Shown here one piece after another: positions 4,281-59,263 of a DNA stretch of 64,000 nucleotides. The stretch is from NCBI GenBank assembly GCA_030697165.1, contig JAUYQQ010000004.1, positions 124,001-188,000 on the forward strand, in the 5' to 3' direction. Numbering within the stretch: position 1 is the stretch's first letter; each line of letters begins with the position of its first letter. A model generated the notes under the pieces. It had not been told where the DNA came from. It saw nothing but the letters and a program-made list of their open reading frames with translations, and ran no database searches. Position numbers and translations under genes: made by a program. Source of the stretch: Acidobacteriota bacterium (GTDB lineage Bacteria > Acidobacteriota > Vicinamibacteria > Vicinamibacterales > UBA2999).

Positions 4281-4397
4281 GGCTGGTCGGGCGGGTGAGG
4301 CGGGTGACGCCGACGACCCCGACCAGCCCGACCAGCCCCGACCCGCCCTACCAGCCCTACCAGCCCTACCAGCCCTACCAGCCCTACCAGCCCCAAG
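4280..4397. repeat. 9-nt tandem array with inverted arms after the ADOP gene
   Basis: Five units of CTACCAGCC (4348-4392) preceded by degenerate CGACCAGCC units from about 4318. GGCTGGTCGGG at 4280-4290 is the exact inverse of CCCGACCAGCC at 4318-4328 and at 4327-4337, so the transcript can fold just after the stop codon at 4278-4280. Confidence 0.85.
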
Positions 4398-4412
4398 CTA
4401 TGATGACGGCGC

Positions 4413-4703
4413 ATGAGCGATTCGGCCTCCCGCCTCGTCACCCTGTCCGCCGCCCGTTGGCGACTGTCGGTCCTCGTCACGGCGGCGATGACCCTCATTT
4501 ACGTCGCCTTCATCCTGCTGATCGCCTTCAACAAGGAACTGCTCGGCACGGTGCTCGTCCCGGGGCTGAGCGTCGGCATCCTGCTCGGGGTGTTCGTGAT
4601 CCTCTCGGCCATGGCGCTGATCCTGGTCTACGTGCGCTGGACCAACACGCACTATGACGATGCGGTAGCGTCCATTCGCAAGGCCCACATGGAGGGCCGC
4701 TGA
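4413..4703 (+). CDS. DUF485 family membrane protein (symporter partner)
   Basis: 96 residues with two hydrophobic helices (about 20-43 and 52-76) and charged ends, as in the YjcH/DUF485 family normally encoded directly before acetate-type sodium:solute symporters. It is probably an accessory inner-membrane subunit of the transporter. Its TGA overlaps the ATG of the next gene (TGATG), so the two are translationally coupled, which supports the pairing. Confidence 0.85.
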
Positions 4704-6241: not shown

Positions 6242-6288
6242 TGGAACCTGGCATGCCCGCCCGCCGTCTGTAAACTCTGAGCTTCTGT

Positions 6289-6858
6289 TTGACCGCGCTT
6301 CAGCTGCACAACCCCCGCATCCGCTATTCCCTGTTCGCGATCTGGCTGCTCGTCGTCGCGGGCGCCCTGTACCTGTATTTCTTCCAGCGGGAAGTGGTGC
6401 AGGCGGAGATGCGCGACGCGATGTCGGCGTCGTTCTGGGCCGCGGCCATCGCCTACCTGGTGATCGGTGCCTTGCGGGCCTTCACGCTGGTGCCGGCGAC
6501 CTTCCCGTTGCTGGTCGCCATGCCGTTCTTCGATCCGTGGGTCCTGCTGGCGCTGACGCTCCCGTGCATCGCGATCTCGTCTTCGATCTGCTACTTCTTC
6601 GCAGAAGCCCTCCACATGGACGAGCTCTTCGAGCGGAAGTACCCGAAACAGATTCGCCAGCTCAAGGACCTGCTGCAGTCGTACCAGCTGCCGATCATCA
6701 TCGGCTGGAGCTTCATGCTGTTCCTGCCGACCGACCTGATCTGCTACGTGTGCGGCTCGCTCAAGATCAACTTCAAGAAGTTCCTGTTCGGCGTGGTCGT
6801 GGGCGAAGGCACGGTCTACGGGATTTACATCTTCCTCGGCGACTGGGTGCTGCGCTAG
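6289..6858 (+). CDS. DedA/VTT-type (TVP38-like) membrane protein
   Basis: 189 residues, start codon TTG at 6289; no ATG fits the frame near the predicted first helix and the Shine-Dalgarno sequence is weak. Hydrophobic helices lie near residues 12-33, 45-66, 70-88, 92-105, 132-155 and 162-185, with a re-entrant-like ALRAFTLVPATFPLLVAMPF segment as in SNARE-associated/VTT proteins thought to be lipid scramblases. Its TAG overlaps the stop of the convergent gene by 4 nt: both stops sit in one CTAG. Family call is moderate; function is inferred. Confidence 0.7.
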   Translation: MTALQLHNPRIRYSLFAIWLLVVAGALYLYFFQREVVQAEMRDAMSASFWAAAIAYLVIGALRAFTLVPATFPLLVAMPFFDPWVLLALTLPCIAISSSICYFFAEALHMDELFERKYPKQIRQLKDLLQSYQLPIIIGWSFMLFLPTDLICYVCGSLKINFKKFLFGVVVGEGTVYGIYIFLGDWVLR

Positions 6859-42830: not shown

Positions 42831-43223
42831 CTACAGGAGACGCCGATCAAACGGCAGAGGCAACAGGTCTTTCATTTGCAGTGTCGTCGTCACGGCCGTC
42901 ACGTTGGCGAGCACCACTTCGATGTCGCCACAGAACTCCCACAGGATCTGCCGGCAGGCGCCGCACGGCGGCGTGGGCGAGTCAGTGTCGGCGACGACCA
43001 CGATGCGGGTAAAGGCCCGGTGGCCGTCGGAGAGCGCCTTGAACATGGCCACTCGCTCGGCGCACACCGTGAGGCCGTAGGTGGCGTTCTCGATGTTGCA
43101 GCCGGTGATGAGCTGGCCATCGGTGGTCTCGAGCGCCGCGCCGACCTTGAAGCCCGAGTAGTCGGCCACGGCCCGCTCGCGTGCGGCCCGGGCGGCCGCG
43201 ATCAGGACCTCAGAGGCGGCCAA
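42831..43223 (-). CDS. cdd: Cytidine deaminase
   Basis: 130 residues; deaminates cytidine and deoxycytidine to (deoxy)uridine. Zn motif complete: TVCAERVAMFKAL (C-A-E) and SPTPPCGACRQILWEF (P-C-x-x-C); N-terminal YSGFKVGAALETTDGQLITG is typical of the homotetrameric class. Its start at 43223 lies 14 nt inside the end of the purine nucleoside phosphorylase gene (overlap 43210-43223). It is the last gene of a four-gene nucleoside salvage operon. Confidence 0.96.
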   Translation of the reverse strand: MAASEVLIAAARAARERAVADYSGFKVGAALETTDGQLITGCNIENATYGLTVCAERVAMFKALSDGHRAFTRIVVVADTDSPTPPCGACRQILWEFCGDIEVVLANVTAVTTTLQMKDLLPLPFDRRLL

Positions 43224-44082
43224 TGATCCCCTCCAGCAGCCCGATGAACTGCCCTTTCACCTGGCGCGCCGTCTCCATGACCTCGTCGTGGTGCAGCGGC
43301 TCTGGAAACACGCCGGCCGCAGGGTTGGTAATGCACGAGATGCCGAGCACCTCCAGGCCCATGTGGCGCGCGACGATGGCCTCGGGCGCGGTGGACATGC
43401 CGACGGCATCCGCGCCAAGGGTCCGGAAGGCGCGGATCTCGGCCGGCGTCTCGTAGCTCGGCCCGAGCACGGCGATGTAGACCCCGTGCTGCACCGCCAC
43501 GCCCTGCTCCTTCGCCGCCTCGTCTGCGAGCGCTCGCAAGCGCGGTGAATAGACGTGGGACATGTCCGGAAAGCGCACGCCGTAGCGCTCGTCGTTGGGC
43601 CCGATCAACGGGTTGTCGCCCATCAGGTTGATGTGATCGTCGATCACCATCAGGGCGCCTCGTGAGCAGTTGGGCGCAATCCCGCCGGCCGCGTTGGTGA
43701 GGATCACCCGCGGCACGCCCAGCCGCCCCATCACCCGCACGGCAAAAGTCACCGTGGTCATCGGGTGACCTTCGTAGACGTGGACGCGGCCCGACAGCGC
43801 CAGCACGCGCTTGCCGCGCAGCGTGCCGCCGACCAGCTTGCCGGCATGGCCAATGACCTTCGAGGCCGGCCAGTGCGGGATGTCGCCATACGGAATGGTG
43901 AACGAATCGCCCAGGTGGTTCGCGAAGTCGCCGAGGCCGGAGCCGAGCACCACTGCGACGTCCGCGCCGCCGCAGCCGTGGCCCCGCAGCCACTCGGCCG
44001 CCTCCGTCGCACGATCGAAATCCGAGCCCAACCCGCTTCCCCCAATCCCTGATTCCTGATCCCCGATCCCTGAAAGGCTCAC
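43210..44082 (-). CDS. Purine nucleoside phosphorylase (family 2)
   Basis: 290 residues from a GTG at 44082 that overlaps the transporter's stop (GTGA). Phosphorolyses purine nucleosides to base and ribose-1-phosphate. Motifs: DVAVVLGSGLGDFANHLG, GRVHVYEGHPMTTVTFAVRV, VILTNAAGGIAPNCSRGALM and AEIRAFRTLGADAVGMSTAP (PNP family 2 signature), FEPLHHDEVM-like end. Residues about 3-16 (LSGIGDQESGIGGSG) are encoded by a 7-nt tandem array; the conserved enzyme begins near residue 20. Without that array the N-terminus would be ordinary. Confidence 0.94.
   Translation of the reverse strand: MSLSGIGDQESGIGGSGLGSDFDRATEAAEWLRGHGCGGADVAVVLGSGLGDFANHLGDSFTIPYGDIPHWPASKVIGHAGKLVGGTLRGKRVLALSGRVHVYEGHPMTTVTFAVRVMGRLGVPRVILTNAAGGIAPNCSRGALMVIDDHINLMGDNPLIGPNDERYGVRFPDMSHVYSPRLRALADEAAKEQGVAVQHGVYIAVLGPSYETPAEIRAFRTLGADAVGMSTAPEAIVARHMGLEVLGISCITNPAAGVFPEPLHHDEVMETARQVKGQFIGLLEGIIGRL
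44044..44071. repeat. 7-nt tandem array (GATCCCT) in the purine phosphorylase N-terminus
   Basis: AATCCCT, GATTCCT, GATCCCC, GATCCCT. Same 7-nt family as at 35943 and 61666; translated as SGIGDQESG on the minus strand, alongside SGVGSRESG at the ABC ATPase. Confidence 0.9.
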
Positions 44083-45341
44083 AGCAGGAAGCCTACGATG
44101 ATGGCGGTCAGGAAGTTGGCGAGCGTGCCCGCGAGCATCGCCCGCAGGCCCAGCCGCGCCAGGTCGCCGCGGCGGGTCGGCGCCAGCGCGCCGATGCCGC
44201 CAATCTGCATGCCGATCGACGCGAAGTTGGCGAAGCCGCACAGCGCGAACGTCGCGATGGTGAACGAGCGCGGGTCAAGGGTCTCCTTCAGGCCGCCAAG
44301 CTGCGCGAAGGCGATGAACTCGTTCAGCACCATGCGCGTGCCCAGCAGGTTGCCCACCGTCGCCGCATCCTGCCACGGCACGCCGAGGCTCCAGGCGACC
44401 GGCGCGAACACCCAGCCGAAGATGATCTGCAGCGACAGGCCCTCGAATCCGACCAGCCCGCCGGCGGCGCCGAGAATGGCGTTGAGCAGCGCAATCAGCG
44501 CCACGAATGAGATCAGCATGGCGCCGACGTTGAGCGCGAGGTGCAGGCCTTCGGAGGTGCCGCGGCCGGCCGCATCGATGATGTTGACGTCGGTGTTCAC
44601 CACCTCGAGCTTGACGGTGCCACGCGTCTCGGGCGTTTCGGTCTCGGGCACGAACATCTTCGCCATCAACAGCGTGCCCGGCGCCGTCATGATCACGGCC
44701 GTCAGCAGGTGCTTGGCGTCGATGCCGAACGCGATGTAGGCGGCCATGATGCCGCCCGAGATGTGGGCCATGCCCGACGTCATCACCGTCATCAGTTCCG
44801 ACTGTGTCAGGCGGGGCAGGAACGGCCGGATGGTCAGCGGCGCTTCGGTCTGGCCCATGAAGATGCTGGCGGCGACGTTCAGCGACTCGGCGCCGCTGGC
44901 GCCCATCAGCTTGTTCATCACGACCGCGAACAGGCGGACGATCATCTGCATCAGGCCGACATAGTAGAGAATGGCGAACAACGCGGCGATGAAGATGATG
45001 GTGGGCAGGATCTGGAAGGCGAACACGACGCCGTAACGCGCACCTTCCTCGCCGAGCGCACCGGTCATCACCCGGCTCCACACCGACGCGTCGCCGATGG
45101 CCCCGAACACGAAACCCGACCCGACGACCGCGAACTCCAGCAGCTGGCGCATCTTCTCGCCCAGCACTTCGAACACCCGCTGGCCGATCGTGGTCTTGAG
45201 GACGATCAAGGCGAACAGCACCTGGAGGCCGAGCCCCCACCCGACAATCCGCAGGCTGATGGCCCGGCGATTGGTTGACAAGGCATAGGCGAGACCGAGG
45301 ATGCCGAAAAGACCGATCAGCGGTTGCAGTGTGCTCAGCAC
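44079..45341 (-). CDS. Concentrative nucleoside transporter (NupC/CNT family)
   Basis: 420 residues, about ten helices. CNT signatures: MTVMTSGMAHISGGIMAAYI, IFMGQTEAPLTIRPFL and GTRMVLNEFIAFAQLGGL, ending in FALCGFANFASIGMQIGGIG. Na+- or H+-coupled uptake of nucleosides at the inner membrane. The start follows the phosphorylase gene by 16 nt, and the stop overlaps the purine phosphorylase start (GTGA). Supplies substrates to the three enzymes of the operon. Confidence 0.94.
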   Translation of the reverse strand: MLSTLQPLIGLFGILGLAYALSTNRRAISLRIVGWGLGLQVLFALIVLKTTIGQRVFEVLGEKMRQLLEFAVVGSGFVFGAIGDASVWSRVMTGALGEEGARYGVVFAFQILPTIIFIAALFAILYYVGLMQMIVRLFAVVMNKLMGASGAESLNVAASIFMGQTEAPLTIRPFLPRLTQSELMTVMTSGMAHISGGIMAAYIAFGIDAKHLLTAVIMTAPGTLLMAKMFVPETETPETRGTVKLEVVNTDVNIIDAAGRGTSEGLHLALNVGAMLISFVALIALLNAILGAAGGLVGFEGLSLQIIFGWVFAPVAWSLGVPWQDAATVGNLLGTRMVLNEFIAFAQLGGLKETLDPRSFTIATFALCGFANFASIGMQIGGIGALAPTRRGDLARLGLRAMLAGTLANFLTAIIVGFLL

Positions 45342-45357
45342 AGGTCCCTCACTACCG

Positions 45358-46695
45358 TTACGCGTTGGCGACGAACATCGTCTCGCCGCTGTCGTGCACC
45401 CAGCCCAGCACGAGCGGCGGCGCGGCGGGCGGCTGGTCGCCGATCACCAGGGCCTGCGTGACCAGCGACAAGGCCGCCGACAGCCGCGAGGCATCGTTGT
45501 AGCGCAGTTCCATCACCGGCTCGCCGGCGGTCACCGCATCCAGGGGCTTCTTGAGCAGCAGGATTCCGGCGGTCAGATCCACCTGGTCATCCTTCTTGTC
45601 GCGGCCGGCGCCGAGCGCCACGGCGGCGCGGCCGACGAGCAGCGCATCGAGCGCGGTCACGAAACCGCGTCGCGGGGCCGTCACCACGTGGGTCAGGGAG
45701 GCCGACGGCAGCCGGCCGGGGTCGTCCACCACCGTTGGGTCGCCGCCCTGCCGCTCCACCATCAGGCGGAACCTGGCCAGCGCCGCGCCCGACGCCAGGG
45801 TGTCGCGCACCAGGGCCGCCGCGTCCTCGTCGGTGGCGGCTTTCTGGGCCAGCCGCACCATGCGGGTCCCCAGACGCACGACCAATTCGGTCAGGTCGGC
45901 GGGGCCCTGGCCGCGCAGCACCTGGACGCACTCGGCAATCTCGAGGGCATTGCCCACGGCGTGGCCGAGCGGCACATCCATCTGGGTAATCAGGCACTCG
46001 GTGCGCACGCCGGCGGCGGTGCCGATCGACACCATCGAGCGCGCCAGCGCGCGCGCGTCCGCCACCCGCTTCATGAAGGCGCCGCGGCCGCACTTCACGT
46101 CGAGGACGAGCGCATCGCTGCCTTCCGCCAGTTTCTTGCTCATCACGGACGCGGCGATCAGCGGCAGGCTGTCGACGGTGCCGGTCACATCGCGCAGCGC
46201 GTAGAGCGCCTTGTCGGCGGGAGCGATGGTGGCGGTCTGGCTGATCAGGCAGCAGCCGATGTCGGCGAGTTGCGCCTGGTACTCGTCGAGCGTCAGCGAG
46301 ACGCGGAAGCCGGGAATGGCCTCCAGCTTGTCGAGGGTGCCGCCGGTGTGGCCGAGGCCCCGGCCCGACATCTTGGGCACCGTGATGCCGCACGCGGCGG
46401 CCAGCGGCGCCAGCACGATCGACACCTTGTCGCCGACGCCGCCGGTGCTGTGCTTGCCGACCTTGATGCCCGGAATGTGCGCCAGGTTGACGCGGTCGCC
46501 CGAGCGGGCCATCGCGTCGGTCAGCCAGGCGGTCTCGACCGCGTTCATCCCCTTGAGGACAATCGCCATCAGCAGGGCCGACGCCTGGTAATCGGGCCAC
46601 GATCCGTCGGTCACCCCGGTCACAAAGGCGTCGATCGCCTCGCGCGACAGCGCGTCGCCGTCCCGCTTGGCGCGAATAATGTCGACGGCTCGCAT
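45358..46695 (-). CDS. deoA: Thymidine/pyrimidine-nucleoside phosphorylase
   Basis: 445 residues from the ATG at 46695 (the frame is open to 46749 but conserved sequence starts at RAVDIIRAKRDG). Family motif KVGKHSTGGVGDKVSIVLAP (phosphate binding), KMSGRGLGHTGGTLDKLEAI, CCLISQTATIAPADKALYAL and SIPLIAASVMSKK-like DSLPLIAASVMSKKLAEG. Phosphorolysis of thymidine or other pyrimidine nucleosides. First gene of the salvage operon with nupC-type transporter, purine phosphorylase and cytidine deaminase. Divergent from the HEAT gene, 32 nt between starts. Confidence 0.94.
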   Translation of the reverse strand: MRAVDIIRAKRDGDALSREAIDAFVTGVTDGSWPDYQASALLMAIVLKGMNAVETAWLTDAMARSGDRVNLAHIPGIKVGKHSTGGVGDKVSIVLAPLAAACGITVPKMSGRGLGHTGGTLDKLEAIPGFRVSLTLDEYQAQLADIGCCLISQTATIAPADKALYALRDVTGTVDSLPLIAASVMSKKLAEGSDALVLDVKCGRGAFMKRVADARALARSMVSIGTAAGVRTECLITQMDVPLGHAVGNALEIAECVQVLRGQGPADLTELVVRLGTRMVRLAQKAATDEDAAALVRDTLASGAALARFRLMVERQGGDPTVVDDPGRLPSASLTHVVTAPRRGFVTALDALLVGRAAVALGAGRDKKDDQVDLTAGILLLKKPLDAVTAGEPVMELRYNDASRLSAALSLVTQALVIGDQPPAAPPLVLGWVHDSGETMFVANA

Positions 46696-46727
46696 GGGGC
46701 GGTCGGCAGTATATCTTAGACACACGC

Positions 46728-48941
46728 ATGGCCCAGCGCGCGGCCGCACCGGCCGACCTCACCCGCAACGCCGTCAACCTGGCGCGCGCGATGACGCTCG
46801 CGTTGCGCAGCTGGGGGTTTTATCCGCCCGAGCACCCGGCCGTGGTCGCCGCGGTGGAGCGCCTCACTGTGGCGGCGGCCGACGCGGCCGGCGGCGGCCT
46901 GATGCAACTGGCGGTCACGCCTCACCAGCTGCTGCTCGACGGCGTTGCGCTCGAGTCTTCGGAACTGGCCGTGGTGGAGTGCGCCGAGCTGCTGCACGAC
47001 CGCGACATCCTGCAGGTCTCGATCATGATGGCGCCGCCGGAGGCGGTGATTCGATCGCTCCTGAACGTGTTGTCACTCGATCGCGCGACCCGCCGCTCGC
47101 GTGGCGGCCCGGCCGCGATCTGGGCGGACGAGGATCAGAACGCCATCCTGCTCGAGCAGATCGACTACCAGGAGATTCTCGAGCGCGAACTGGACGAGGG
47201 ACCGGCGCGCCGCGACTCCAGCTGGAAGGCCATTGTCCGGTCGATCATCATGGGCCGGTCGACGTTCACGGCCGACGAACAGCAGCGCCTGCTCGAGATC
47301 TCGCGCGATGTCGGCGCCATTGGCGAGCTGGCCAAGGACAGCCGCGAGCCCTTCACCACGCCTGACGGCTCGCCGCTCGTGACCACCCAGGCCGCCACCG
47401 TGCTGGCCGTGTACCGCCACATCGCCAAGACCGTGGCCGCCCTCGAGCCCGAGCGGGTGCAGGAAGTGATCGATTCGCTGGCGCTGGCCGCCTCGAACCT
47501 CGACCCCTCCACCGCGCTCGAGCTCATGTTGCAGGAGGAAAGCGCCGGCGAGGGGGTGCAGATCGTCGGGGCGCTGAAGCAGGCGTTCGACGACCAGCAG
47601 GTGGCCATGCTGCTGGCACGCGCCATGTCGGCGCCGGGCCACCCCACCAACCGGCTGGCGAAGGTGCTCGACACGCTGGCCCCGGACCTCGAACGCAAGC
47701 GCCGCGTGCTGACCCTCGCCAAGCGCTTGATCTCGGAACGCGATTTTGGCAGCAAGCGGCCAATCGACGACATCCGCCAGTCGCTCGACGAGCTGCTGCT
47801 GAAGTACGACGAATCCACCTACGTGTCGACCGACTACCGCCAGTCGATGGACTCGGCGGCCGAGCGGGCCGCTGACCTGGCGGCGCGCGGCCTGCCGCCA
47901 GAGATGCCCGAGTGGCTGTCGACGCTCGGCCACGAGAGCGTGCGCCGCCTGTCGGGCCAGTTGCTGATCGACCTGCTGCGCAACGAATCGCAGGCCGAGC
48001 GGATGGCGGAAACGGCCCGCGACATGGCGGCCTTTGTCGAAGAACTGCTGCTGGCCGGCGCCTATGCCGAGGCGGTCCCGGTGGTGACGGAATTGACCGC
48101 GGCGACGACCCGACCGCCCGCGCTGGCACCCGACGCGTGCCGGCGCGCCCTCGATGGCCTCGGCACGTCCAGCGCGCTGGTGGAATCGGCGGCCGGGCTC
48201 GCCGACCTCTCGGCCGAGGAGTGCAGCAGCCTGGGAGCGGTCGTGCTCGCCATCGGCGCGCCGGCCGTGCCGGCGGTGATCGGCGCATTCCAGAAAGAAA
48301 CCGGTGGGGTCGCGACCGAGCGCGCGGCGGCGCTGCTGGCCAAGATTGGGCCGCCGGCCATTCCGGGCCTCGCGGCCGCGATCGACGACCGGCGCTGGTT
48401 CGTGCAGCGCGAACTGGCGCGCCTGTTGGGACAAATCGGCACGGCGGCGGCGGTACCGCCGCTGCAAGCGTTGTTACGGCGCACCGACGTGCGGGTCTTG
48501 CAGGAAGCGGTATCGTCGCTCGCGCGCATCGACGACGCGGCCGCCGGCCGTGCGCTGCACATGGTGTTGAAGGCGACCGCGGGTGAGGCCCGCGCCGCGG
48601 TCATCTCCGCCCTCGTGAACCTCAAGGATCCACGGGTCGTGCCGATGCTGGCGCGCGTGCTCGACGACAGCGATCCGTTCGGCGACGACCTGTCGATGGT
48701 GGTCGAGACGCTCGACGCGCTGGCGTCGTTTCGTGACGACCGCGCGCTGTCGCAGATTGCCGCCATGGCGCGGCGCCGCCGGTGGCTGGCCTGGGGCAAG
48801 ACGCGGCGGTTGCGCGAGGCATCGCTGCGCGCGCTGTCGCGCATCGGCACGCCCAAGGCCCGTGACACCCTGACCGACCTCGCCCGCAACGGCGACTTTT
48901 TCCTGCGGCGCATGGCCGCCGCGCCACGGTCGCCCGCATGA
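46728..48941 (+). CDS. HEAT-repeat protein of the HD-GYP cassette (copy 1)
   Basis: 737 residues, no signal peptide or membrane helix. An N-terminal module (about 1-130) contains ALRSWGFYPPEHPAVVAAVE and LAVTPHQLLLDGVALES, a pattern repeated in all four proteins of the cassette. A central helical region (about 130-470) with LLEQIDYQEILERELDEG aligns with the paralogue at 50309. The C-terminal third is HEAT-like (GAPAVPAVIGAFQKE, RAAALLAKIGPPAIPGLAAA, RELARLLGQIGTAAAVPPLQ, VLQEAVSSLARIDDA). Probably a cytosolic scaffold or adaptor. Its TGA overlaps the start of the HD-GYP gene (ATGA). Divergent from deoA by 32 nt. Confidence 0.8.
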   Translation: MAQRAAAPADLTRNAVNLARAMTLALRSWGFYPPEHPAVVAAVERLTVAAADAAGGGLMQLAVTPHQLLLDGVALESSELAVVECAELLHDRDILQVSIMMAPPEAVIRSLLNVLSLDRATRRSRGGPAAIWADEDQNAILLEQIDYQEILERELDEGPARRDSSWKAIVRSIIMGRSTFTADEQQRLLEISRDVGAIGELAKDSREPFTTPDGSPLVTTQAATVLAVYRHIAKTVAALEPERVQEVIDSLALAASNLDPSTALELMLQEESAGEGVQIVGALKQAFDDQQVAMLLARAMSAPGHPTNRLAKVLDTLAPDLERKRRVLTLAKRLISERDFGSKRPIDDIRQSLDELLLKYDESTYVSTDYRQSMDSAAERAADLAARGLPPEMPEWLSTLGHESVRRLSGQLLIDLLRNESQAERMAETARDMAAFVEELLLAGAYAEAVPVVTELTAATTRPPALAPDACRRALDGLGTSSALVESAAGLADLSAEECSSLGAVVLAIGAPAVPAVIGAFQKETGGVATERAAALLAKIGPPAIPGLAAAIDDRRWFVQRELARLLGQIGTAAAVPPLQALLRRTDVRVLQEAVSSLARIDDAAAGRALHMVLKATAGEARAAVISALVNLKDPRVVPMLARVLDDSDPFGDDLSMVVETLDALASFRDDRALSQIAAMARRRRWLAWGKTRRLREASLRALSRIGTPKARDTLTDLARNGDFFLRRMAAAPRSPA

Positions 48942-50290
48942 TCACGCCGCAAGAAGACCTGGTCCGCCGCGTCGGCGCGGCGCTGCGGGCGACGGAGCTC
49001 TACGCCCCCACCCATCCCCTGGTCGATCGCGCGGCCACGGCGCTGCACGCCCTGTTGAAGCCGACGCTGGCCGAGACGCCGGCCGTGATCGTGGCCTTCC
49101 TGGAAGACGATGTCGTGGTCAACGACTTCCGGCTACCGCGCGGTTCGGGCTCGCTGGCCGGGTTGCTGCGCGACATGCGCGACCGCAAGATCGAGAAGAT
49201 CACGTTCGGCCGCGAGGTCGAAGTCACCGACATTCGGGCGCTGATGGACGAGCTGGCCGACCGCACCTCGCGCACCGCCGTCAGCGATCGCCTGACCTCG
49301 CGTGGCGTTCGCCGCATCCAGGTGTCGAAGGTGGTGGTCGAAGAACCCGACGACTCGGAAGTGGGACTGGCAGCGGCCAAGCAGATGTATACGAAGGCGG
49401 TGTCAACCGCCGAGACCATCTGGACGGCCGCGAAGGCCGGGCAGCAACCCGATCCGGCCGACGCGCGCGGCATTATCGACAGCCTGTCGAAGCTGGTCTA
49501 CCAGGACCGCACGTCGCTGCTCGCCCTCACCGCGCTCAAGCGGCACGACAACTACACCTTCACGCACATGGTGAACGTGGCGGCGCTGTCGATGGCGATG
49601 GCGCGCTCGCTCGACCTCGAGGGTCCGATGCTGCGCGAGTTCGGCTTCGCGGCGCTGATGCATGACATCGGCAAGGTCCACACGCCGCTCGAGATCCTGA
49701 ACAAGCCCGACAAGCTGACCAACGAAGAGTTCACCATCATGAAGCTGCACGTGGTGAACGGCGCGCACATCCTGCGGCGCACGCCCGAAACGCCGGCGCT
49801 GGCGCCGGTCGTCGCCTTCGAGCATCACCTGAAGCAGGATCTCAGCGGCTACCCCGAGAACATCGGCGCGCGGACGCTGAACCTGTGCACCATGGTGGTC
49901 AGCATCGTCGATGTGTTCGACGCGCTGCGCAGCAATCGCGTCTATCGGGCCGGACTGGCGACCGATCGCATCAAGCACATCATGGGCCAGCAGGACAGCC
50001 CGGCGTTCCATCCGTCGCTGCTGCGGCGGTTCGTCAACCTGATGGGGCTGTTCCCGATTGGCACGGTGGTCCGGCTCAGCACCGAGGAAGTGGGGGTGGT
50101 CACGCAGACCCATCCGGACGACCCCTTCCGGCCACAAGTGAAGCTGGTGCTCGATCGCCTGGGCGCGCCGTATGAAACGCCGCTCCTGACCAACACCTGG
50201 GATCGCGACAGCCGCGGCGAGTTCCATCGTGCGGTGGTTGAAGCCGTCGATGGCCCCCAGGTAGGCATTGACCCGCTGGCGTACTTATAA
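48938..50290 (+). CDS. HD-GYP domain protein of the cassette (copy 1)
   Basis: 450 residues. The N-terminal module (about 1-130) has RATELYAPTHPLVDRAATAL, VVVNDFRLPRGSGSLAGLL and KIEKITFGREVEVTDIRALM. The HD-GYP domain (about 170-380) has YTFTHMVNVAALSMAMA, AALMHDIGKVHTPLEILNKP, HVVNGAHILRRTPE and AFEHHLKQDLSGYPENIG. The GYP motif reads D-L-S-G-Y-P where DGxGYP is usual, a variant that may still be active. HD-GYP enzymes degrade c-di-GMP. C-terminal part (about 380-450) is a beta-rich tail shared with copy 2. Translationally coupled to the HEAT gene. Confidence 0.9.
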   Translation: MITPQEDLVRRVGAALRATELYAPTHPLVDRAATALHALLKPTLAETPAVIVAFLEDDVVVNDFRLPRGSGSLAGLLRDMRDRKIEKITFGREVEVTDIRALMDELADRTSRTAVSDRLTSRGVRRIQVSKVVVEEPDDSEVGLAAAKQMYTKAVSTAETIWTAAKAGQQPDPADARGIIDSLSKLVYQDRTSLLALTALKRHDNYTFTHMVNVAALSMAMARSLDLEGPMLREFGFAALMHDIGKVHTPLEILNKPDKLTNEEFTIMKLHVVNGAHILRRTPETPALAPVVAFEHHLKQDLSGYPENIGARTLNLCTMVVSIVDVFDALRSNRVYRAGLATDRIKHIMGQQDSPAFHPSLLRRFVNLMGLFPIGTVVRLSTEEVGVVTQTHPDDPFRPQVKLVLDRLGAPYETPLLTNTWDRDSRGEFHRAVVEAVDGPQVGIDPLAYL

Positions 50291-50308
50291 TTCCTGGTTA
50301 CCTCAGCC

Positions 50309-52588
50309 ATGCCGTCCTCATCCACTCCGTCGCCGGAACCGCTCTCGCCCGACACTGCCGGGCGCCTGTCGGAGTTCGCCAAGGCCTGCAAGGCGGCGAC
50401 GCGCGTGGTGTCGATGTACCCGCCCAGCCATCCGACGATCCAGGGGGCGTTGTCGCGCATTACCGAGGCCGGCAAGCAGGCGGTCTATCACGGCCCGCTG
50501 CCGATCACCGTGTTGCCCGACGCGTTGCTGGTGGGTGGCCGCGGCTTCGCCAAACCGGATCCAGCCGCCGCCGAACTGGCCTCGCTGCTCCACCTGCAGA
50601 TGATCGGCGAAGTCACCTTGCTCAGCACGCTCGAACCCGACGAGTGGCATGCCTTCCTGATGCTGCTCGCCAAGTCGCCCGAGGACGCCCGGGCCATTGG
50701 CGGCGTGGCCGCGGCGTGGGCGGCCAACGGCAACCAGTCGATCACGCTCAAAGAAATCGACTATGCCGAGGTCTTGCGCGAGCGCGCCGGCAACGGCGAG
50801 TCGGCGTCGTGGGACCGCATCCTGGCCACGCTCAGCGAAGAGCAGGAAGAGTCGGGCGTCCTCGAACCGGGCATGGCCGGCATGCTCGAGATGGCGAAGG
50901 ACTCGCAGCGGCTGGCGCAATTCGCCGAGAAGCTGCAGGCGCACGGCCGCGCCAGCGGCGACGACTCGGTCCAGCAGCGCAAGTCGCTGCTGGAACTGAT
51001 GCACGGGCTGGCCAACTACGCCGCCGAACGGCAGCCCGGCGAACTGGACGCCGTGCTCGATCGCATGGCCGGCGCCGCGGCGCAGATGTCGCCGGACATG
51101 CTGCTGACGCTCATCACCGATCCGCCCCCGCTGCAGCCGCCCGGCTCGACCGCACCGCGCATGGACCTGGGCGGCGAGCTGCAGGCCCGCCTCACCGACG
51201 AGATGCTGACCAGGTTTCTCGTCGAAAACGTGGTCAAGGACCGCGGCGCCAGCAACCGGCTGGCGGCAGCATTCCAGACGTTGGTGCCCGACCCCGAACG
51301 CCAACAAAGCATCCTCGCCGCTGCGACCGAACAGGCCGCGGCCATGTTCGGCGACGATCCGCAGTTCGAAAGCGTGTGGAACAGCTCGACGCAGATGCTG
51401 ACCACGTATTCCGACTCGCAGTTCGTGTCGGAAGATTACGCCCGCGAGTTGACCTCGGCGCGCACCATGGCGCTCGAGGTGGACAAGATCGGCGACGACC
51501 CGCCGGTGCGCATCCGCGCCTGGATGTCCACGGTTAGCGACGAAGAGGTCCGTGGCCTTGACCAGCGATTGTTGCTGGATCTGCTGACCATCGAGGCGCG
51601 CCACGATGCCTGGGCCGGAGTGCTGGATCTCACCGTCGGCAGCATCGAACAGCTGGTGCTCGTCGGCGATCTGGCGCTCGCCGCCCAACTGGTCGATGCC
51701 GTCGTCGCCGCCGCGAAGCGGACCGAGTCGGCCAATGCGGCGTACGCCGCGGCTGGCGTCACGCGCCTGGTCGATGGTGCCCTGGTCCGGCACCTGGCGT
51801 TGTTCCTGCGCCAGGCCACCGACGGCGAAGTGGGCATCGCGACGCAGATCTGCAACACCATTGGCCCCGACCTGGTCGAGCCCCTGGCCGATGCGCTGGC
51901 CGCCGAAGACAACGCCCGCACGGTGCGCCTCCTGCGCGACATCCTGATCGGGTTCGGCAGCGCCGCCCGCCAGTACGCCGACGAGTTGCGCACGTCGCCG
52001 AACCCGGCGGTGCGCCGCGCCGCAGTGGACCTGCTGCGCGCCCTGGGGGGTGAAGCCGCGCTGCCCGACTTGCGCAACCTCCTGGACGATGGCGATCCGC
52101 AGGTGCAACGAGAGGCGCTGCGGGCGATCGTGCAGATTGGCACGAACGAGGCGTTCCAGGCACTCGAGCACGCCCTGAAGAACGGCCAGCCGCACACGCG
52201 AGAGGCGATCCTGCAGGCGCTCGGGTCGCTGCGCGACGAGCGCGCGGCGCCGCTGTTCGTCCACTTGCTCACGCACACCGGCTACACCGGCGCGCTCGAG
52301 GGCGACTACATCTCGAACATCGAGTCGCTCGGACGCGTCGCCAACGATGAACGCTCGGTCGCGACGCTGAAGGACATCCTCTATCGCGGCGAGTGGTACG
52401 CGCCTGGGCGCACCACCCGCATCCGGACGGCGGCTGCGCGCGCCCTGCGCGCGATCAGCCTGCCGAGCGCCGAGCGCACGTTGAGCGAAGCGGCCGACGG
52501 CGGTTCGCGCGGCGTCAAGCGCGCGGTCAGGACGGCGCTGGCCGAACCCGCGCCGATGCGGTCCGCGGCACGGAGGACCCAGGCGTGA
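50309..52588 (+). CDS. HEAT-repeat protein of the HD-GYP cassette (copy 2)
   Basis: 759 residues, paralogous to the protein at 46728: KAATRVVSMYPPSHPTIQGA and ITVLPDALLVGGRGFAKPDP match the shared N-terminal module, and LKEIDYAEVLRERAGNGESA matches copy 1's LLEQIDYQEIL region. The middle is helical; the C-terminal part (about 540-745) has HEAT units (VRRAAVDLLRALGGEAALPD, VQREALRAIVQIGTNEAFQA, TREAILQALGSLRDERAAPL). Soluble, cytoplasmic. It starts 18 nt after the first HD-GYP gene and its TGA overlaps the GTG of the second (GTGA), repeating the same cassette arrangement. Confidence 0.8.
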   Translation: MPSSSTPSPEPLSPDTAGRLSEFAKACKAATRVVSMYPPSHPTIQGALSRITEAGKQAVYHGPLPITVLPDALLVGGRGFAKPDPAAAELASLLHLQMIGEVTLLSTLEPDEWHAFLMLLAKSPEDARAIGGVAAAWAANGNQSITLKEIDYAEVLRERAGNGESASWDRILATLSEEQEESGVLEPGMAGMLEMAKDSQRLAQFAEKLQAHGRASGDDSVQQRKSLLELMHGLANYAAERQPGELDAVLDRMAGAAAQMSPDMLLTLITDPPPLQPPGSTAPRMDLGGELQARLTDEMLTRFLVENVVKDRGASNRLAAAFQTLVPDPERQQSILAAATEQAAAMFGDDPQFESVWNSSTQMLTTYSDSQFVSEDYARELTSARTMALEVDKIGDDPPVRIRAWMSTVSDEEVRGLDQRLLLDLLTIEARHDAWAGVLDLTVGSIEQLVLVGDLALAAQLVDAVVAAAKRTESANAAYAAAGVTRLVDGALVRHLALFLRQATDGEVGIATQICNTIGPDLVEPLADALAAEDNARTVRLLRDILIGFGSAARQYADELRTSPNPAVRRAAVDLLRALGGEAALPDLRNLLDDGDPQVQREALRAIVQIGTNEAFQALEHALKNGQPHTREAILQALGSLRDERAAPLFVHLLTHTGYTGALEGDYISNIESLGRVANDERSVATLKDILYRGEWYAPGRTTRIRTAAARALRAISLPSAERTLSEAADGGSRGVKRAVRTALAEPAPMRSAARRTQA

Positions 52589-53982
52589 TCGATCCAGTCA
52601 CCCGCCTGCGGATGGCCGACGAGTTCATGCGCCGGCTGGGCGCCGCGTTGCGCGGCGCCCAGCTGTACGCGCCCTCGCATCCGCTGGTGCAGCGGGCATT
52701 CGACGGCCTCAACGAATCGATCACGCAGTTGCTGAGCGACCAACCGTCGGTGGCGATCGGCATCATCGGCCAGGAAGTGATTGTCGGCGACATGCCGTTG
52801 CCGCGCGCCGCCGAGTCGATGGGCGAGATGATCCGGCGACTGAAGTCGCTCGGCATCGAACGCATCGTGTTCGACCGTGGCGTGACCCCCGACGAACTGC
52901 AGACGCTGGCGCAAACCATTGCCCACCCCGAGCGGCGGCCCGGCGCGTCGGGACCAGGCGTCGAACCCAACGATCCGCTGGCCGTGCTCGGGACGCTGAC
53001 GCACATTCGGGTGGGGCGCATCCAGGCCGAGCAGAAAGTCGAGAAGTCGGCAGCCGACGTCGCGACGATCCGGCGTCTCTATGCGGACGCCTCGAATGTG
53101 GCCGGCCAGGTGTGGGAGATGGCCAAGACCGAGGACACGCCCGACCCGAAGGCCGCTCGCGCCCTGATCGATTCACTGGCGCAGGCCGTGTCAGCCAACC
53201 GGACCGCGCTGATTGCCCTGACCGCACTCAAGAATTACGACAACTACACGTTCACGCACATGGTGAACGTGTCGATTCTGACCATGTCGCAGGCGCGCGC
53301 GCTCGGCATGGAAGGCTCGATGCTGCGCGAATTGGGCCTGGCAGCGCTGATGCACGATATCGGCAAGGTGCGCACGCCGACCGAGATCCTGAACAAGCCC
53401 GAGAAACTGACCGACGCCGAGTTCAACATCATGCGCATGCACGTGGTGGACGGCGCGGAGATTCTCCGGCGCACGCCGGAAATGCCGGCGATTGCCCCGG
53501 TGATCGCGTTCGAACACCACTTGCGCCTCGACGGCACGGGCTATCCCTTCGGCGTCTCGCGGGCCGGCCTCAACCTGGGCACCATGCTGTGCAGCATTGC
53601 CGACGTCTACGACGCCATGCGATCGCAGCGCGCGTATCAGCAGGCCTTCCCGTCGGACCGCATTCTCGAAGTGATGAAGCGCAACGACGGCCAGCAGTTC
53701 GACCAGCACCTGGTCCGCCGCTTCACGCAGCTGCTCGGCATCTACCCGCCCGGCAACCTGGTGCGCCTCGACACCGGCGCCCTCGCCGTGGTCATGGCCG
53801 TGCACGCGCCGGATCCCTACAAGCCACGCGTCCGCGTCATCCAGTTGCCGTCGCGACAGGCCCTGGAGGTTCCGTACGACATCAACCTGTGGGAAGCCAC
53901 CGCAGACGGTCCCGGGCCCAAGAGCGTGCTGGCACCATTGGATCCCGCCGAGTACGGGATCGATCCGCTGAACTACTTGTAG
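52585..53982 (+). CDS. HD-GYP domain protein of the cassette (copy 2)
   Basis: 465 residues from a GTG at 52585 overlapping the upstream TGA; the longer frame to 52393 only reads the HEAT gene out of frame. Shared N-terminal module: RGAQLYAPSHPLVQRAFDGL, EVIVGDMPLPRAAESMGEMI, RLKSLGIERIVFDRGVTPDE. The HD-GYP domain has YTFTHMVNVSILTMSQARAL, AALMHDIGKVRTPTEILNKP and the canonical FEHHLRLDGTGYPFGV. Closely similar to copy 1 throughout, clearly a duplication. Likely a c-di-GMP phosphodiesterase; copy 1 carries DLSGYP instead. Confidence 0.92.
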   Translation: MIDPVTRLRMADEFMRRLGAALRGAQLYAPSHPLVQRAFDGLNESITQLLSDQPSVAIGIIGQEVIVGDMPLPRAAESMGEMIRRLKSLGIERIVFDRGVTPDELQTLAQTIAHPERRPGASGPGVEPNDPLAVLGTLTHIRVGRIQAEQKVEKSAADVATIRRLYADASNVAGQVWEMAKTEDTPDPKAARALIDSLAQAVSANRTALIALTALKNYDNYTFTHMVNVSILTMSQARALGMEGSMLRELGLAALMHDIGKVRTPTEILNKPEKLTDAEFNIMRMHVVDGAEILRRTPEMPAIAPVIAFEHHLRLDGTGYPFGVSRAGLNLGTMLCSIADVYDAMRSQRAYQQAFPSDRILEVMKRNDGQQFDQHLVRRFTQLLGIYPPGNLVRLDTGALAVVMAVHAPDPYKPRVRVIQLPSRQALEVPYDINLWEATADGPGPKSVLAPLDPAEYGIDPLNYL

Positions 53983-56646: not shown

Positions 56647-56724
56647 AAAGACGAAGAATGCGAACCAATTAGGCCTTTCAGACGTCTCTGTTGGCGTGCG
56701 CACCAATCCCAGGCCCACCCCCGC

Positions 56725-56778
56725 GCACCCTAGGCACCCTAGGCACCTTAGGCACCTTAGGCACCTTAGGCACCCTAT
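56725..56778. repeat. 9-nt tandem array GCACCYTAG, inverse of the preceding array
   Basis: GCACCCTAG x2, GCACCTTAG x3, GCACCCTAT. It is the reverse complement type of the 56570 array (CTAGGCACC words), so about 50 nt can pair across a 78-nt loop, directly upstream of the sigma factor gene. Confidence 0.95.
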
Positions 56779-56792
56779 CAACCTCCTCCCCC

Positions 56793-57380
56793 ATGTCCCC
56801 GTCTAACCCTACAAGTGACGTGAACAGCGCCGATCTCGAGTTGGTCGAGCGCATTCGGAGTGGGGATGGGTCGGCGTTCGAGGCCCTGTACCGCCAGCAC
56901 GCCACGCGGCTCTACAATCTGGCGAGCCGGATGACCGGCGCCAAGGGCGAGGCCGACGACCTGCTGCAGGATATTTTCCTGCTGGCCTACCGGAAGATTG
57001 CGAGCTTTCGGGGCGAGTCGTCCCTCGGCACGTGGCTTTACCGGTTGGCGATGAACCACTGCCTGGACGTGCTGCGCAACCGGCAAACGCGCATGGGCCA
57101 GCACACCGACTCGCTGGACGAGCCCGACGCCGTGCCGGTCGCGTCGCCGGTGCCGATCCTGAGCGCGGTCAGCCGCATCGACCTGGAACGGGCGATCGCG
57201 TCGCTGCCGCCGGCCTGCCGGGCCGCCTTCCTCCTTCACGACGTGGAAGGGTTCGGGCATCATGAGGTCGGCACCATGCTCGGCGTGTCGGAAGGCACGT
57301 CGAAGTCGCAGGTGCACAAGGCGCGGATGCGTATTCGCTCCTACCTTGCGAACGGACTGCGGAAGAGAGTTGAAAGTTGA
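56793..57380 (+). CDS. ECF-type RNA polymerase sigma factor
   Basis: 195 residues from the ATG at 56793 (frame open further up, through the 9-nt array translated as repeated TLG, which is not credible coding). Sigma region 2: LVERIRSGDGSAFEALYRQH and ARLYNLASRMTGAKGEADDL with DDLLQDIFLLAYRKIASFRG; region 4: AIASLPPACRAAFLLHDVEG and HHEVGTMLGVSEGTSKSQVH. No Shine-Dalgarno before the ATG. Followed by an anti-sigma gene with a zinc motif and a DUF4097 gene: a self-contained envelope-signal unit. Its stop lies in another array. Confidence 0.92.
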   Translation: MSPSNPTSDVNSADLELVERIRSGDGSAFEALYRQHATRLYNLASRMTGAKGEADDLLQDIFLLAYRKIASFRGESSLGTWLYRLAMNHCLDVLRNRQTRMGQHTDSLDEPDAVPVASPVPILSAVSRIDLERAIASLPPACRAAFLLHDVEGFGHHEVGTMLGVSEGTSKSQVHKARMRIRSYLANGLRKRVES

Positions 57381-57443
57381 AGAGTTGATAGTTGGTAGTT
57401 TTAGTTGGTAGTTTCAGTTTCAGTTTCAGTTTCAGTTTCAGTT
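57366..57443. repeat. GTTGAAAGTTGATAGTTGGTAG / TTTCAG array between sigma and anti-sigma genes
   Basis: Starts in the last codons of the sigma gene (the TGA at 57378-57380 is part of GTTGAAAGTTGAAG), passes GTTGATAGTTGGTAGTTTTAG, then TTTCAG repeated six times up to two bases before the ATG at 57444. No Shine-Dalgarno remains. The same vocabulary makes up the inverted repeat at 29291-29431. Confidence 0.93.
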
Positions 57444-58193
57444 ATGACCTGTAGTGACCTCAATGCCGCCCTGGTCGATTTCGTCGATGGGCGTCTCGAT
57501 CCCGCGACCCAGCGGAACGTCGAGCGGCATCTTGAGGCCTGCGACCTCTGCGGCGCGCTCGTCACCGACTTGCGCACCATCCGTGCGGCGGCCTTCATGC
57601 TCGACCGTCACGAGCCGGCGCCCGGTTCATGGACGCGCCTGCAGGCCGCCGTGGCCGCGGAACCGGCCCCGAAAGGCCGGCTGCTCGCCATGCCAGAGCT
57701 TGGGCGCCGAAGCCTTGGCGGAGGCGGCGCGAACTGGCCCGTGTGGCTGGGCGCCGCCGCGGCGCTGGTGCTGGCGACCGTGATCGGCCTGCTGCCGCTG
57801 ATGTCGCGTGACAACGCGCCAGCCGACAACGCGGCCGAGGCCACCGGGCGCGCGATCAGCGTCGAGTCGGTGGCCGCAGAATTCGAAGCGGCCGAGAAGC
57901 ACTACCAGAAGGCGATTGACGACCTGCAGACCATTGCCAACCAGGACAACGGCGAACTCGACCCGCAGGTGGCGTCGGTCCTGCAGAAGAACTTGACGGT
58001 GATCGACCAGGCGATCAGCGAGAGCCGCGCCGCGCTCAAGTCGCAGCCGGCCAGCACCAACGCGCAGGACGGCCTGTTCGACGCCCTCCGCACCAAGGTG
58101 GCGCTGCTGCAGACCACGGTCGAGTTGATCAACGAAATGCGTAAGGGCAATCAAGCCGAGGCAGGGCGCCGCATCCAGACCCTGTCGCAGTAA
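57444..58193 (+). CDS. Anti-sigma factor with zinc-binding motif and one membrane helix
   Basis: 249 residues from the ATG at 57444; the frame is open to 57405 but only through the TTTCAG array (SVSVSV). The N-terminal zinc motif HLEACDLCGALV (H-x3-C-x2-C) is that of ZAS anti-sigma factors. One transmembrane helix at about 100-122 (WLGAAAALVLATVIGLLPLM). The C-terminal extracytoplasmic part (about 125-249) is helical, with coiled-coil-like heptads (FEAAEKHYQKAIDDLQTIAN, ALRTKVALLQTTVELINEM). It holds the ECF sigma inactive until an envelope signal releases it. Residues about 90-97 (RRSLGGGG) come from a dispersed element. Confidence 0.9.
   Translation: MTCSDLNAALVDFVDGRLDPATQRNVERHLEACDLCGALVTDLRTIRAAAFMLDRHEPAPGSWTRLQAAVAAEPAPKGRLLAMPELGRRSLGGGGANWPVWLGAAAALVLATVIGLLPLMSRDNAPADNAAEATGRAISVESVAAEFEAAEKHYQKAIDDLQTIANQDNGELDPQVASVLQKNLTVIDQAISESRAALKSQPASTNAQDGLFDALRTKVALLQTTVELINEMRKGNQAEAGRRIQTLSQ
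57709..57731. repeat. Degenerate in-frame copy of the CCGAAGCCTTGGCGGAGG element
   Basis: GGGCGCCGAAGCC followed by TTGGCGGAGGCGGC; sits between the zinc domain and the membrane helix of the anti-sigma protein. Confidence 0.6.
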
Positions 58194-58201
58194 CGGACGT
58201 T

Positions 58202-59263
58202 ATGCCGAACCGATTCTTCCCACGCCTGATTGTCGCCCTCGCCTTGGTCGCGAGCGCCTCGCCGGCCAGTGCCGCGGTCACCCTGCGCGGCCTGCTGCTG
58301 GACGAAGGCGGCCCGCGTCCGAGCTGGTTCGAGCGCTACCAGGATTCGCGCCAGGGCCCCGAAACGGTTGACAAGACCTCGCAGACCTTCAAGGTCGACG
58401 AGGGCGCGGCGCTCGACCTCACCGGCATCGCCGGCGACGTCCGAGTCACCGGCAGCAGCGGTAACGAGATTCGCGTCGAGGCCACCAGGCGGGTCCGCCA
58501 TCGCAGCGCAGACGAGGCCAAGCGGCTGTTGAGCGAGTTGCGGGTGGAGATGAACAACTTCAACGGCCGTGTCGAAGTGCGCTCGGTCTACCCGCGCCGC
58601 GGCAACGGGGACCGCGGCTTTTCGGGCCGAATCGACTACGTGATTGCCGTCCCCACGGGCGCTTCGGTCGCCGTCAAGTCCATCTCCGGTGACGTGATCG
58701 TCTCGGGCGTGCGCGGTGAAGTGCGGGCCGAGACGATCAGCGGCGATGTCAGCGTCGACTCCGCCCCCAACCTGGCGCTCGCCAAAACGGTGTCGGGCGA
58801 CGTGACCGCCCGCGACGCCGGCGGCGCGTCGACGATGGTGCTCAGCACGGTCAGCGGCTCGGTGATCGCCTCCGGGCTCAAAGTGCGGACGCTCCAGGCC
58901 GGCTCGGTCAGCGGCAATGTCCGGCTGTCGGGGACGCAGGTCGAGCGGGTCGAGGCCAAGTCGGTGTCGGGCAACATCGACTTCGATGCCCCGCTCATCA
59001 AGGCCGGCCGGTACGCCTTCACCTCCCACTCCGGCAACGTCCGTATCGTCCTCTCGGGCAACACCGGTTTCGAACTGGACGCCGACACGTTCAGCGGCAG
59101 CGTGCGGTCGGACGTGCCGGTGACCCTGCGGACCATGGGCCGCAACGACCGTGACCAACGGCGGGGCGCCAGCAACCGCGCCATCCGCGGCGCCTACGGC
59201 GACGCCAGCGCCCTGGTTGCGGTTCGCAGCCATAGCGGTTCGGTCGTGATTACCAAGAAGTAA
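58202..59263 (+). CDS. Exported DUF4097-type beta-repeat protein
   Basis: 353 residues. Signal peptide (about 1-24, LIVALALVASASPASAA) and a C-terminal parallel beta-helix-like repeat region (about 75-350) of DUF4097 type: VDEGAALDLTGIAGDVRVTG, VKSISGDVIVSGVRGEVRAE, ISGDVSVDSAPNLALAKTVS, GDVTARDAGGASTMVLSTVS, NIDFDAPLIKAGRYAFTSHSG. These 20-residue SGDV repeats form a stacked solenoid. The gene follows the anti-sigma gene by 8 nt, so its product may be sensed by or regulated through the ECF system. Periplasmic or outer-membrane-associated; function unknown. Confidence 0.85.
   Translation: MPNRFFPRLIVALALVASASPASAAVTLRGLLLDEGGPRPSWFERYQDSRQGPETVDKTSQTFKVDEGAALDLTGIAGDVRVTGSSGNEIRVEATRRVRHRSADEAKRLLSELRVEMNNFNGRVEVRSVYPRRGNGDRGFSGRIDYVIAVPTGASVAVKSISGDVIVSGVRGEVRAETISGDVSVDSAPNLALAKTVSGDVTARDAGGASTMVLSTVSGSVIASGLKVRTLQAGSVSGNVRLSGTQVERVEAKSVSGNIDFDAPLIKAGRYAFTSHSGNVRIVLSGNTGFELDADTFSGSVRSDVPVTLRTMGRNDRDQRRGASNRAIRGAYGDASALVAVRSHSGSVVITKK

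Follow-up and report, generated by a model that had tools for sequence, protein, structure and literature searches.

Four consecutive forward genes at positions 46728-53982 of the window, the whole stretch of 64,000 nucleotides of Acidobacteriota DNA analysed here, run in the order HEAT, HD-GYP, HEAT, HD-GYP. They raise the question whether a HEAT-repeat protein and an HD-GYP protein can act as one unit, and what would join them. On balance, we favour a two-protein cyclic-dinucleotide phosphodiesterase unit that would be assembled through an N-terminal module common to both proteins, with the HEAT protein as a putative adaptor to a client. The original prediction, made from the letters of this stretch, had described the alternating order and two four-nucleotide stop/start overlaps, all of which are present among the features of the locus:

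46728..48941, + strand: UP1 (HEAT-1), 737 aa, with N-terminal module, central helical region and C-terminal HEAT repeats
46764..47102, + strand: UP1 N-terminal module (FYPPEHP), from its row in the module alignment; own-genome profile match E 3.5e-22
48321..48930, + strand: UP1 HEAT-repeat region, starting at the Pfam match and with an approximate end; HEAT_2 3.9e-16, HEAT_PBS 5.5e-10
48938..48941, + strand: ATGA stop/start overlap of UP1 and HD-GYP-1
48938..50290, + strand: HD-GYP-1, 450 aa, with module, linker, HD-GYP domain and C-terminal region
48947..49279, + strand: HD-GYP-1 N-terminal module (YAPTHP), from its row in the module alignment; own-genome match E 3.3e-26
49535..49963, + strand: HD-GYP domain of HD-GYP-1 (DLSGYP; R at the position of K317 in the reference enzyme PmGH); Pfam HD_5 1.4e-17
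50309..52588, + strand: UP2 (HEAT-2), 759 aa, with module, helical region and HEAT repeats
50360..50698, + strand: UP2 N-terminal module (MYPPSHP), from its row in the module alignment; own-genome match E 4.3e-28
51524..52561, + strand: UP2 HEAT superhelix (model residues 406-751); VIA matches to alphaRep, the PP2A A subunit and importins, Z 11-15
52585..52588, + strand: GTGA stop/start overlap of UP2 and HD-GYP-2
52585..53982, + strand: HD-GYP-2, 465 aa, GTG start, with module, linker helices, HD-GYP domain and C-terminal beta region
52612..52947, + strand: HD-GYP-2 N-terminal module (YAPSHP), from its row in the module alignment; own-genome match E 7.5e-33
53251..53712, + strand: HD-GYP domain of HD-GYP-2 (DGTGYP; Q at the PmGH K317 position); Pfam HD_5 1.4e-23

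Pfam assigned HEAT_2 and HEAT_PBS above cut-off to both UPs, in their C-terminal part only, and the HEAT_2 scores of 59.5 and 89.1 bits (cut-off 27.7) place them among the HEAT-repeat proteins. Both HD-GYP proteins carry HD_5 and HD above cut-off, and by their HD_5 scores (64.4 and 84.0 bits; curated cut-off 27.2) they are HD proteins. UP1 and UP2 are alike over nearly their full length (27% over residues 21-752 of HEAT-2); the central region that the original prediction saw as shared is indeed alike, as one part of this longer likeness.

A homologous module in both partners

The module spans about 110 residues and is common to all four window proteins. When separate N-terminal alignments of the HD-GYP proteins (99 rows) and the HEAT proteins (97 rows) were compared with hhalign, they matched over 109 columns with a probability of 99.5 (E 3e-23), whereas seven control region pairs reached a probability of at most 1.4. 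The predicted kinship of the four front ends is therefore significant by profile comparison, and a chance resemblance of the modules is ruled out. Left out of these alignments were the partial HEAT proteins of L078, L090, L104, L105 and L155, as well as L126, a second HEAT frame of L123, HEAT rows no longer than 460 residues, HD rows no longer than 340 and rows identical to one another. Since iterated HD and HEAT profiles absorbed each other's modules, they were not used as proof of homology. HEAT-2 as sole query matched the start of HD-GYP-2 (E 9e-4) in a search confined to the source genome, and a profile search of that genome at E<=0.01 found the module in the four window genes and in no others. 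The Y-x-P-x-H-P motif described earlier generalises to YPxxHP, followed in the consensus by LxxRGIxxLxFxxG and ELxxF; the accompanying LP-R turn is clear in the two HD-GYP proteins but not in the HEAT proteins. In the AlphaFold2 models of HD-GYP-2 (mean pLDDT 87, pTM 0.63) and UP2 (mean pLDDT 86, pTM 0.49), the predicted module elements follow the same order of two helices, a beta hairpin, a helix, a strand and a helix, with a block pLDDT of at least 80.

No Pfam family matched the N-terminal modules of the window above its cut-off. The sole family touching the module at E<=1 was DUF3391, at residues 81-189 of HD-GYP-2 (E 0.2); this match, in HD-GYP-2 only, scored 12.6 bits against a cut-off of 27.8, and membership of the DUF3391-HD-GYP proteins was rejected. 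Identity with another annotated Pfam domain was likewise rejected, as across 58 module rows no family occurred in more than one member among the 25 families listed out of 28 (best E 0.002). A profile search of the PDB with the module returned the designed protein octarellin V.1 (E 2.4e-6, 39 columns), which was taken as spurious, and 14 other matches, all at E 0.12 or worse. Because HD and HEAT matches fill the structure-search lists, the module was hardly probed by them, and no new fold is claimed for it.

Pairing across four phyla

At E<=0.001, the module was found in 65 of 199 Acidobacteriota genomes, 98 of 188 from Myxococcota, 78 of 198 from Desulfobacterota and 97 of 148 from Nitrospirota, tallies that may be low as many genomes had only part of their candidates scored. 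A restriction to Acidobacteriota, suggested by 5 matching genomes among 20 reached through loci, was overturned by these phylum samples. The names Desulfobacterota and Nitrospirota were assigned from NCBI taxonomy and the titles of records L185 and L163. The Myxococcota sample was checked by MYXO-CTERM, which occurred in 6 of 8 genomes of the group, in 0 of 4 Acidobacteriota and in 0 of 14 controls. Five matching records are labelled Geothrix, Myxococcales, Alphaproteobacteria, Acidimicrobiia and Cyanobacteria, and several of these labels look wrong; the record labelled Cyanobacteria (L128) shows 82% identity to HD-GYP-2. A binning error is possible for the contig of L149.

In Acidobacteriota, a HEAT-type gene lies directly upstream of the HD-GYP gene in 58 of 60 loci, which were selected by a match to HD-GYP-2, most of them full-length; the exceptions are a contig edge (L070) and an HD-GYP protein that lacks the module (L126). 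All 20 Nitrospirota loci contain the pair, with the enzyme's module undetected in L285 and an unbroken HEAT frame undetected in L286. An HD-GYP-type partner is present in 17 of 20 Myxococcota loci, including one fusion and one locus with the HEAT region undetected, and absent from L251, L252 and L255; for Desulfobacterota, the pair was found in 12 of 20 loci. Loci were chosen by a match to the module or to HD-GYP-2, the Myxococcota picks favoured sites with two matches, long and single frames were added deliberately for Desulfobacterota, and some named loci duplicate genomes of the first set (L127 is the contig of L068).

Of 157 HD-GYP genes that carry the module in the loci fetched, 147 lie directly 3' of a module-HEAT gene, compared with 3 of 58 module-less HD-GYP genes that have such a partner (L256, L285 and the incomplete L144). 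Both counts rest on catalytic-region and HEAT-region profiles that exclude the module; they include the window, count some genomes twice and cover above-threshold frames only, so that decayed Myxococcota partners are partly omitted (13, against 17 in the ligand survey). The other ten module-bearing HD-GYP genes comprise four at contig edges (L070, L149, L155, L104), the fusion L246, three with the HEAT gene in two frames (L078, L139, L286) and two whose upstream module gene fails the HEAT profile (L247, L248). With start codons assigned by rule, the HEAT and HD-GYP genes overlap in 47 of 71 pairs, by 4 bases in 33 of them, and in 28 of the 39 pairs of the named set. The basic unit is one HEAT/HD-GYP pair. 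The adjacency is kept in relatives and also in three other phyla, and the duplication named in the original prediction is real and local to the window's order.

Natural fusions and links to GGDEF proteins

One genome of the Myxococcota sample (G326, one of the two checked genomes of that group without MYXO-CTERM) contains at L246 a continuous frame of 1,182 codons that joins a module, a weak HEAT-like region (E 4e-4), a second module and an HD domain. Its third-position G+C is even from about codon 120, and Pfam supports the HD part and not the HEAT part. Four GGDEF-AAA_16(STAND)-module-module-HEAT proteins of about 1,430 aa occur in three Desulfobacterota genomes (L299, L300, L301), two of them in tandem in L299, and Acidobacteriota L216 encodes GGDEF-AAA_16-module-module up to the contig end. 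Among these five module-fused GGDEFs, four read (A/G)GDEF and the one of L301 AGDNF. In Acidobacteriota L219, a frame at 2308-7199 carries PilZ, a Ser/Thr kinase, module and HEAT (HEAT_2 below cut-off), and the next gene encodes a module and a decayed HD region. The fusions with HD-GYP, GGDEF and PilZ tie the module to breaking, making and sensing cyclic di-GMP (c-di-GMP). Together with the near-exclusive pairing, the gene overlap and the matched inheritance described below, the fusion of HEAT-like and HD parts supports the proposal of the HEAT protein as the enzyme's partner or scaffold.

No GGDEF gene lies within the window, in agreement with the original prediction; the nearest on the contig (L316, 4865-5917, minus strand) starts 3.4 kb past the window end. 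It reads GHQAGS, in contrast to the GHxxGD of the other six readable GGDEFs of the genome, and GHxxGS is presumably the mark of cyclic GMP-AMP (cGAMP) synthase (Hypr) GGDEFs. This gene adjoins one that reads by eye as mreB.

Probable duplication of the whole pair

Quick, midpoint-rooted trees of 49 HD-GYP and 49 HEAT proteins show the same split into cassette 1 and cassette 2 (SH-aLRT 98 and 98; 99 and 100). Each of the 16 double loci has one cassette of each type, and in the window's order, taken here as Vicinamibacterales from close named loci such as L148 and L157, the partners of every one of the 13 single-cassette loci are type-matched (2 of type 1, 11 of type 2); four other single loci fall as outgroups in the trees. 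No partner swap was seen among these 29 loci. The matched split and the absence of swaps suggest that one old duplication copied the whole pair, and the trees make a single duplication followed by losses of whole pairs the most likely history.

Active site and nucleotide pocket

HD-GYP residues were mapped on PmGH of Persephonella marina, a GAF-HD-GYP c-di-GMP phosphodiesterase, with residue roles after PMC4159591. The PmGH metal ligands H189, H221, D222, H250, H276, H277 and D305, together with K225, are present in HD-GYP-1 and HD-GYP-2, as are D183 and R314. The seven ligands and K225 are intact in 94 of 100 family members, and likewise in 32 of 32 members from Nitrospirota and Desulfobacterota. 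The GYP triad occurs in both window enzymes, in 88 of the 100 family members (it is changed in the other 12) and again in 32 of 32. Judged by all the ligand features tested, and leaving aside one consensus glutamate considered below, HD-GYP-1 and HD-GYP-2 are members of the HD-GYP family; the enzyme probably breaks down a signalling nucleotide.

The carboxylate position of PmGH E185 reads Y221-T-F, which lies outside the trinuclear subgroup (E/D-T-G). The residue is Y in 91 of 100 family members and E in 1, and Y or F there marks a class predicted to be binuclear (PMC4159591). The two cassettes differ at the position of K317, a guanine contact in PmGH (PMC4159591): cassette 1 has R in 18 of 18 members, with the motif D[LR][ST]GYP, and cassette 2 has Q in 26 of 27 (one N), with DG[TS]GYP. 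The two enzymes have diverged in their nucleotide pocket. Past the HD domain, at residues about 385-450, the HD-GYP proteins have a conserved C-terminal beta region (YPxGTxVxLxTGExAVV, RPxV); members just 361-391 residues long end too early to hold it.

Comparison with known systems

RpfG of Xanthomonas carries a REC domain. No Response_reg (REC) match was found at E<=1 in the window proteins, which are therefore not RpfG-type response regulators. RpfG is an HD-GYP protein that works via partner proteins (PMC4159591, PMC4877007), but these are GGDEF and PilZ proteins instead of a HEAT protein whose module is homologous to one in the enzyme. The top structural match was Bd1817, an unconventional HD-GYP protein of Bdellovibrio (3tm8/3tmb; Z 24.1 and rmsd 3.1 for 224 residues, the linker helices among them). 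Only residues 78-308 of Bd1817 were aligned, its N-terminal part being outside the match, and it differs in being reported as inactive in catalysis and as lacking the tyrosine of GYP (PMC4159591). PmGH (4mcw) shares the HD-GYP fold (VIA Z 18.1 and rmsd 3.7 for 183 residues), with a GAF front end in place of the module; its E185, K317 and HHE correspond to Y, R or Q, and HHL in the window enzymes, and the available parts of PMC4159591 describe no HEAT partner for it. PmxA of Myxococcus xanthus, also an HD-GYP protein, cleaves both cGAMP and c-di-GMP in vitro (PMC8844925); it is a Cache-HAMP-HD-GYP membrane sensor (PMC4877007), and the available parts of the cited papers describe no module or HEAT partner for it. 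The HEAT superhelix of UP2 resembles those of the PP2A A subunit, importins and alphaRep, whose partners are unrelated and which have no aligned counterpart of the module.

The listings from literature searches on the pair, its distribution and the HD-GYP background showed no recurring HEAT partner sharing the enzyme's module and no fusions, in line with the earlier statement that no system of this layout was known. The HD-GYP enzyme family is known; the module without a Pfam model, the HEAT pairing and the fusions appear to be new.

Gene neighbourhood

A nucleoside salvage cluster (deoA-type phosphorylase, nucleoside transporter, PNP and cytidine deaminase) occupies 42831-46749 of the window, divergent from the cassette, and its pyrimidine-nucleoside phosphorylase gene diverges from UP1 across 32 bp, given the ATG start chosen. 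The deoA/nucleoside cluster lies beside the cassette in most loci of the window's order and not elsewhere. An ECF sigma factor, a zf-HC2 protein and a DUF4097 protein are encoded near the pair at 56691-59263, and again in L106, outside the window's class. With the first set limited to one order, the second recurring in L106 and neighbours otherwise differing, conserved neighbours were rejected as a clue to the client. Of 47 neighbours, 20 were scanned with Pfam; MshEN was seen in two of them, and GGDEF, STAS, histidine kinase and plain HD domain in one apiece. Both the histidine kinase and the plain HD domain lie beside lone module-HEAT genes. The plain HD domain is that of a 226-aa protein whose gene is overlapped by the lone module-HEAT gene downstream of it in L211 (1329-4303, minus strand), possibly another type of partner. 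In L109, L110 and L113 the pair lies among rhamnose-use genes (RhaA confirmed by Pfam in L109 only, the others by eye), and five Desulfobacterota loci (L287, L291, L292, L293, L303) have a separate HEAT-type frame on the opposite strand just past the pair.

Proposed mechanism and alternative explanations

In the unit that we favour, the first gene would supply a HEAT-repeat adaptor, made of module, helical spacer and HEAT superhelix, and the second an HD-GYP phosphodiesterase with the same front module. The two proteins would most likely be joined through their homologous modules, with pseudo-symmetry, into a hetero-dimer or oligomer. The HEAT array would bind a client or a sensor; close to this client, the HD-GYP domain would degrade c-di-GMP or another, related dinucleotide, or would only bind it where the site has decayed. 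A hetero-oligomer held by homologous modules, with a HEAT adaptor and an HD-GYP effector, seems to us the most economical account. A broader version is held more tentatively, at somewhat below an even chance: module-HEAT proteins may form the hub of a c-di-GMP complex in at least four phyla, on which the module docks HD-GYP, GGDEF-STAND or PilZ-kinase parts as partners or as fusions, with the pair split in dinucleotide preference in the window's order.

Several observations weigh against the two-protein unit. No module match was found in 134 of 199 Acidobacteriota genomes, and a module-HEAT protein without an HD-GYP partner occurs in 8 of 20 Desulfobacterota loci and in most single-module frames elsewhere. 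Pfam HEAT went unrecognised in some first-gene proteins (L239, L298 and the L246 fusion), and neighbours vary outside the window's order. Linked genes can be co-inherited without contact, so that linkage alone could keep the partners matched. All ligands are kept in only 2 of 17 Myxococcota partners; catalysis is therefore not the universal role, and the pairing outlives it there. Of 49 generic HD-GYPs, 47 have the E of HHExxDGxGYP and 2 have no readable motif; in the family this E is found in 0 of 100, 0 of 32 and 0 of 15 readable Myxococcota members, and L replaces it in both window enzymes (HHL). The available parts of PMC4159591 do not name this E as a metal ligand of PmGH, so the HD-GYP label was kept.

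The alternative explanations overlap in part. The module could be a ligand- or surface-sensing domain that both proteins use separately, responding to the same cue without a complex while the operon only co-expresses them. Each module is predicted to be a compact domain, an HD-GYP partner is missing for some module-HEAT proteins, and HD-GYPs can bear a front sensor such as the GAF domain of PmGH (PMC4159591). However, the near-exclusive pairing, the 4-base overlaps in 33 of 71 pairs and the HEAT-HD-GYP fusion exceed what shared sensing needs, and a sensing domain ought to recur with other outputs of the genome, where the module search found none; we regard this account as unlikely. If instead the HD-GYP partner were mainly a nucleotide receptor or a structural pseudo-enzyme with catalysis secondary, the persistence of the Myxococcota pair despite its lost ligands, the GYP altered in 12 of 100 members and the E of HHE missing in all members read would be explained, yet the retention of every ligand in 94 of 100 members and in 32 of 32 elsewhere makes it rather improbable. 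An ordinary local duplication with chance adjacency and a weak module resemblance has next to nothing in its favour beyond HEAT and HD-GYP being common domains, and is contradicted by the cross-phylum pairing, the hhalign homology and the confinement of the module to four genes in the genome.

The substrate itself may also differ from the one assumed, with one or both enzymes acting on 3',3'-cGAMP or another nucleotide rather than mainly on c-di-GMP, and the cassettes splitting substrates between them. The contrast of R and Q at the K317 position and of the two GYP motifs points in this direction, as does the GHxxGS GGDEF of the genome with its presumed cGAMP-synthase link; the five module-fused GGDEFs, however, carry the ordinary GHxxGD. 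The cGAMP selectivity of PmxA has been ascribed to a glutamine near the active site (PMC8177086), which may correspond to the K317 position, and replacing R314 or K317 of PmGH by alanine did not much reduce activity (PMC4159591). A substrate split of this kind is possible but, on this evidence, doubtful.

Implications

In each of four large phyla, between one third and two thirds of the genomes sampled gave a match to a module that has no Pfam model, and in most of the fetched loci this module belongs to the pair. If the preferred reading holds, the pair would give a defined and testable way into cyclic-dinucleotide signalling in groups that have received little study, and a clear example of an enzyme and an adaptor evolving as a unit. 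Myxococcota, which have kept the pair while the active site decayed, would allow one to ask in a natural setting whether it is the complex or the catalysis that matters.

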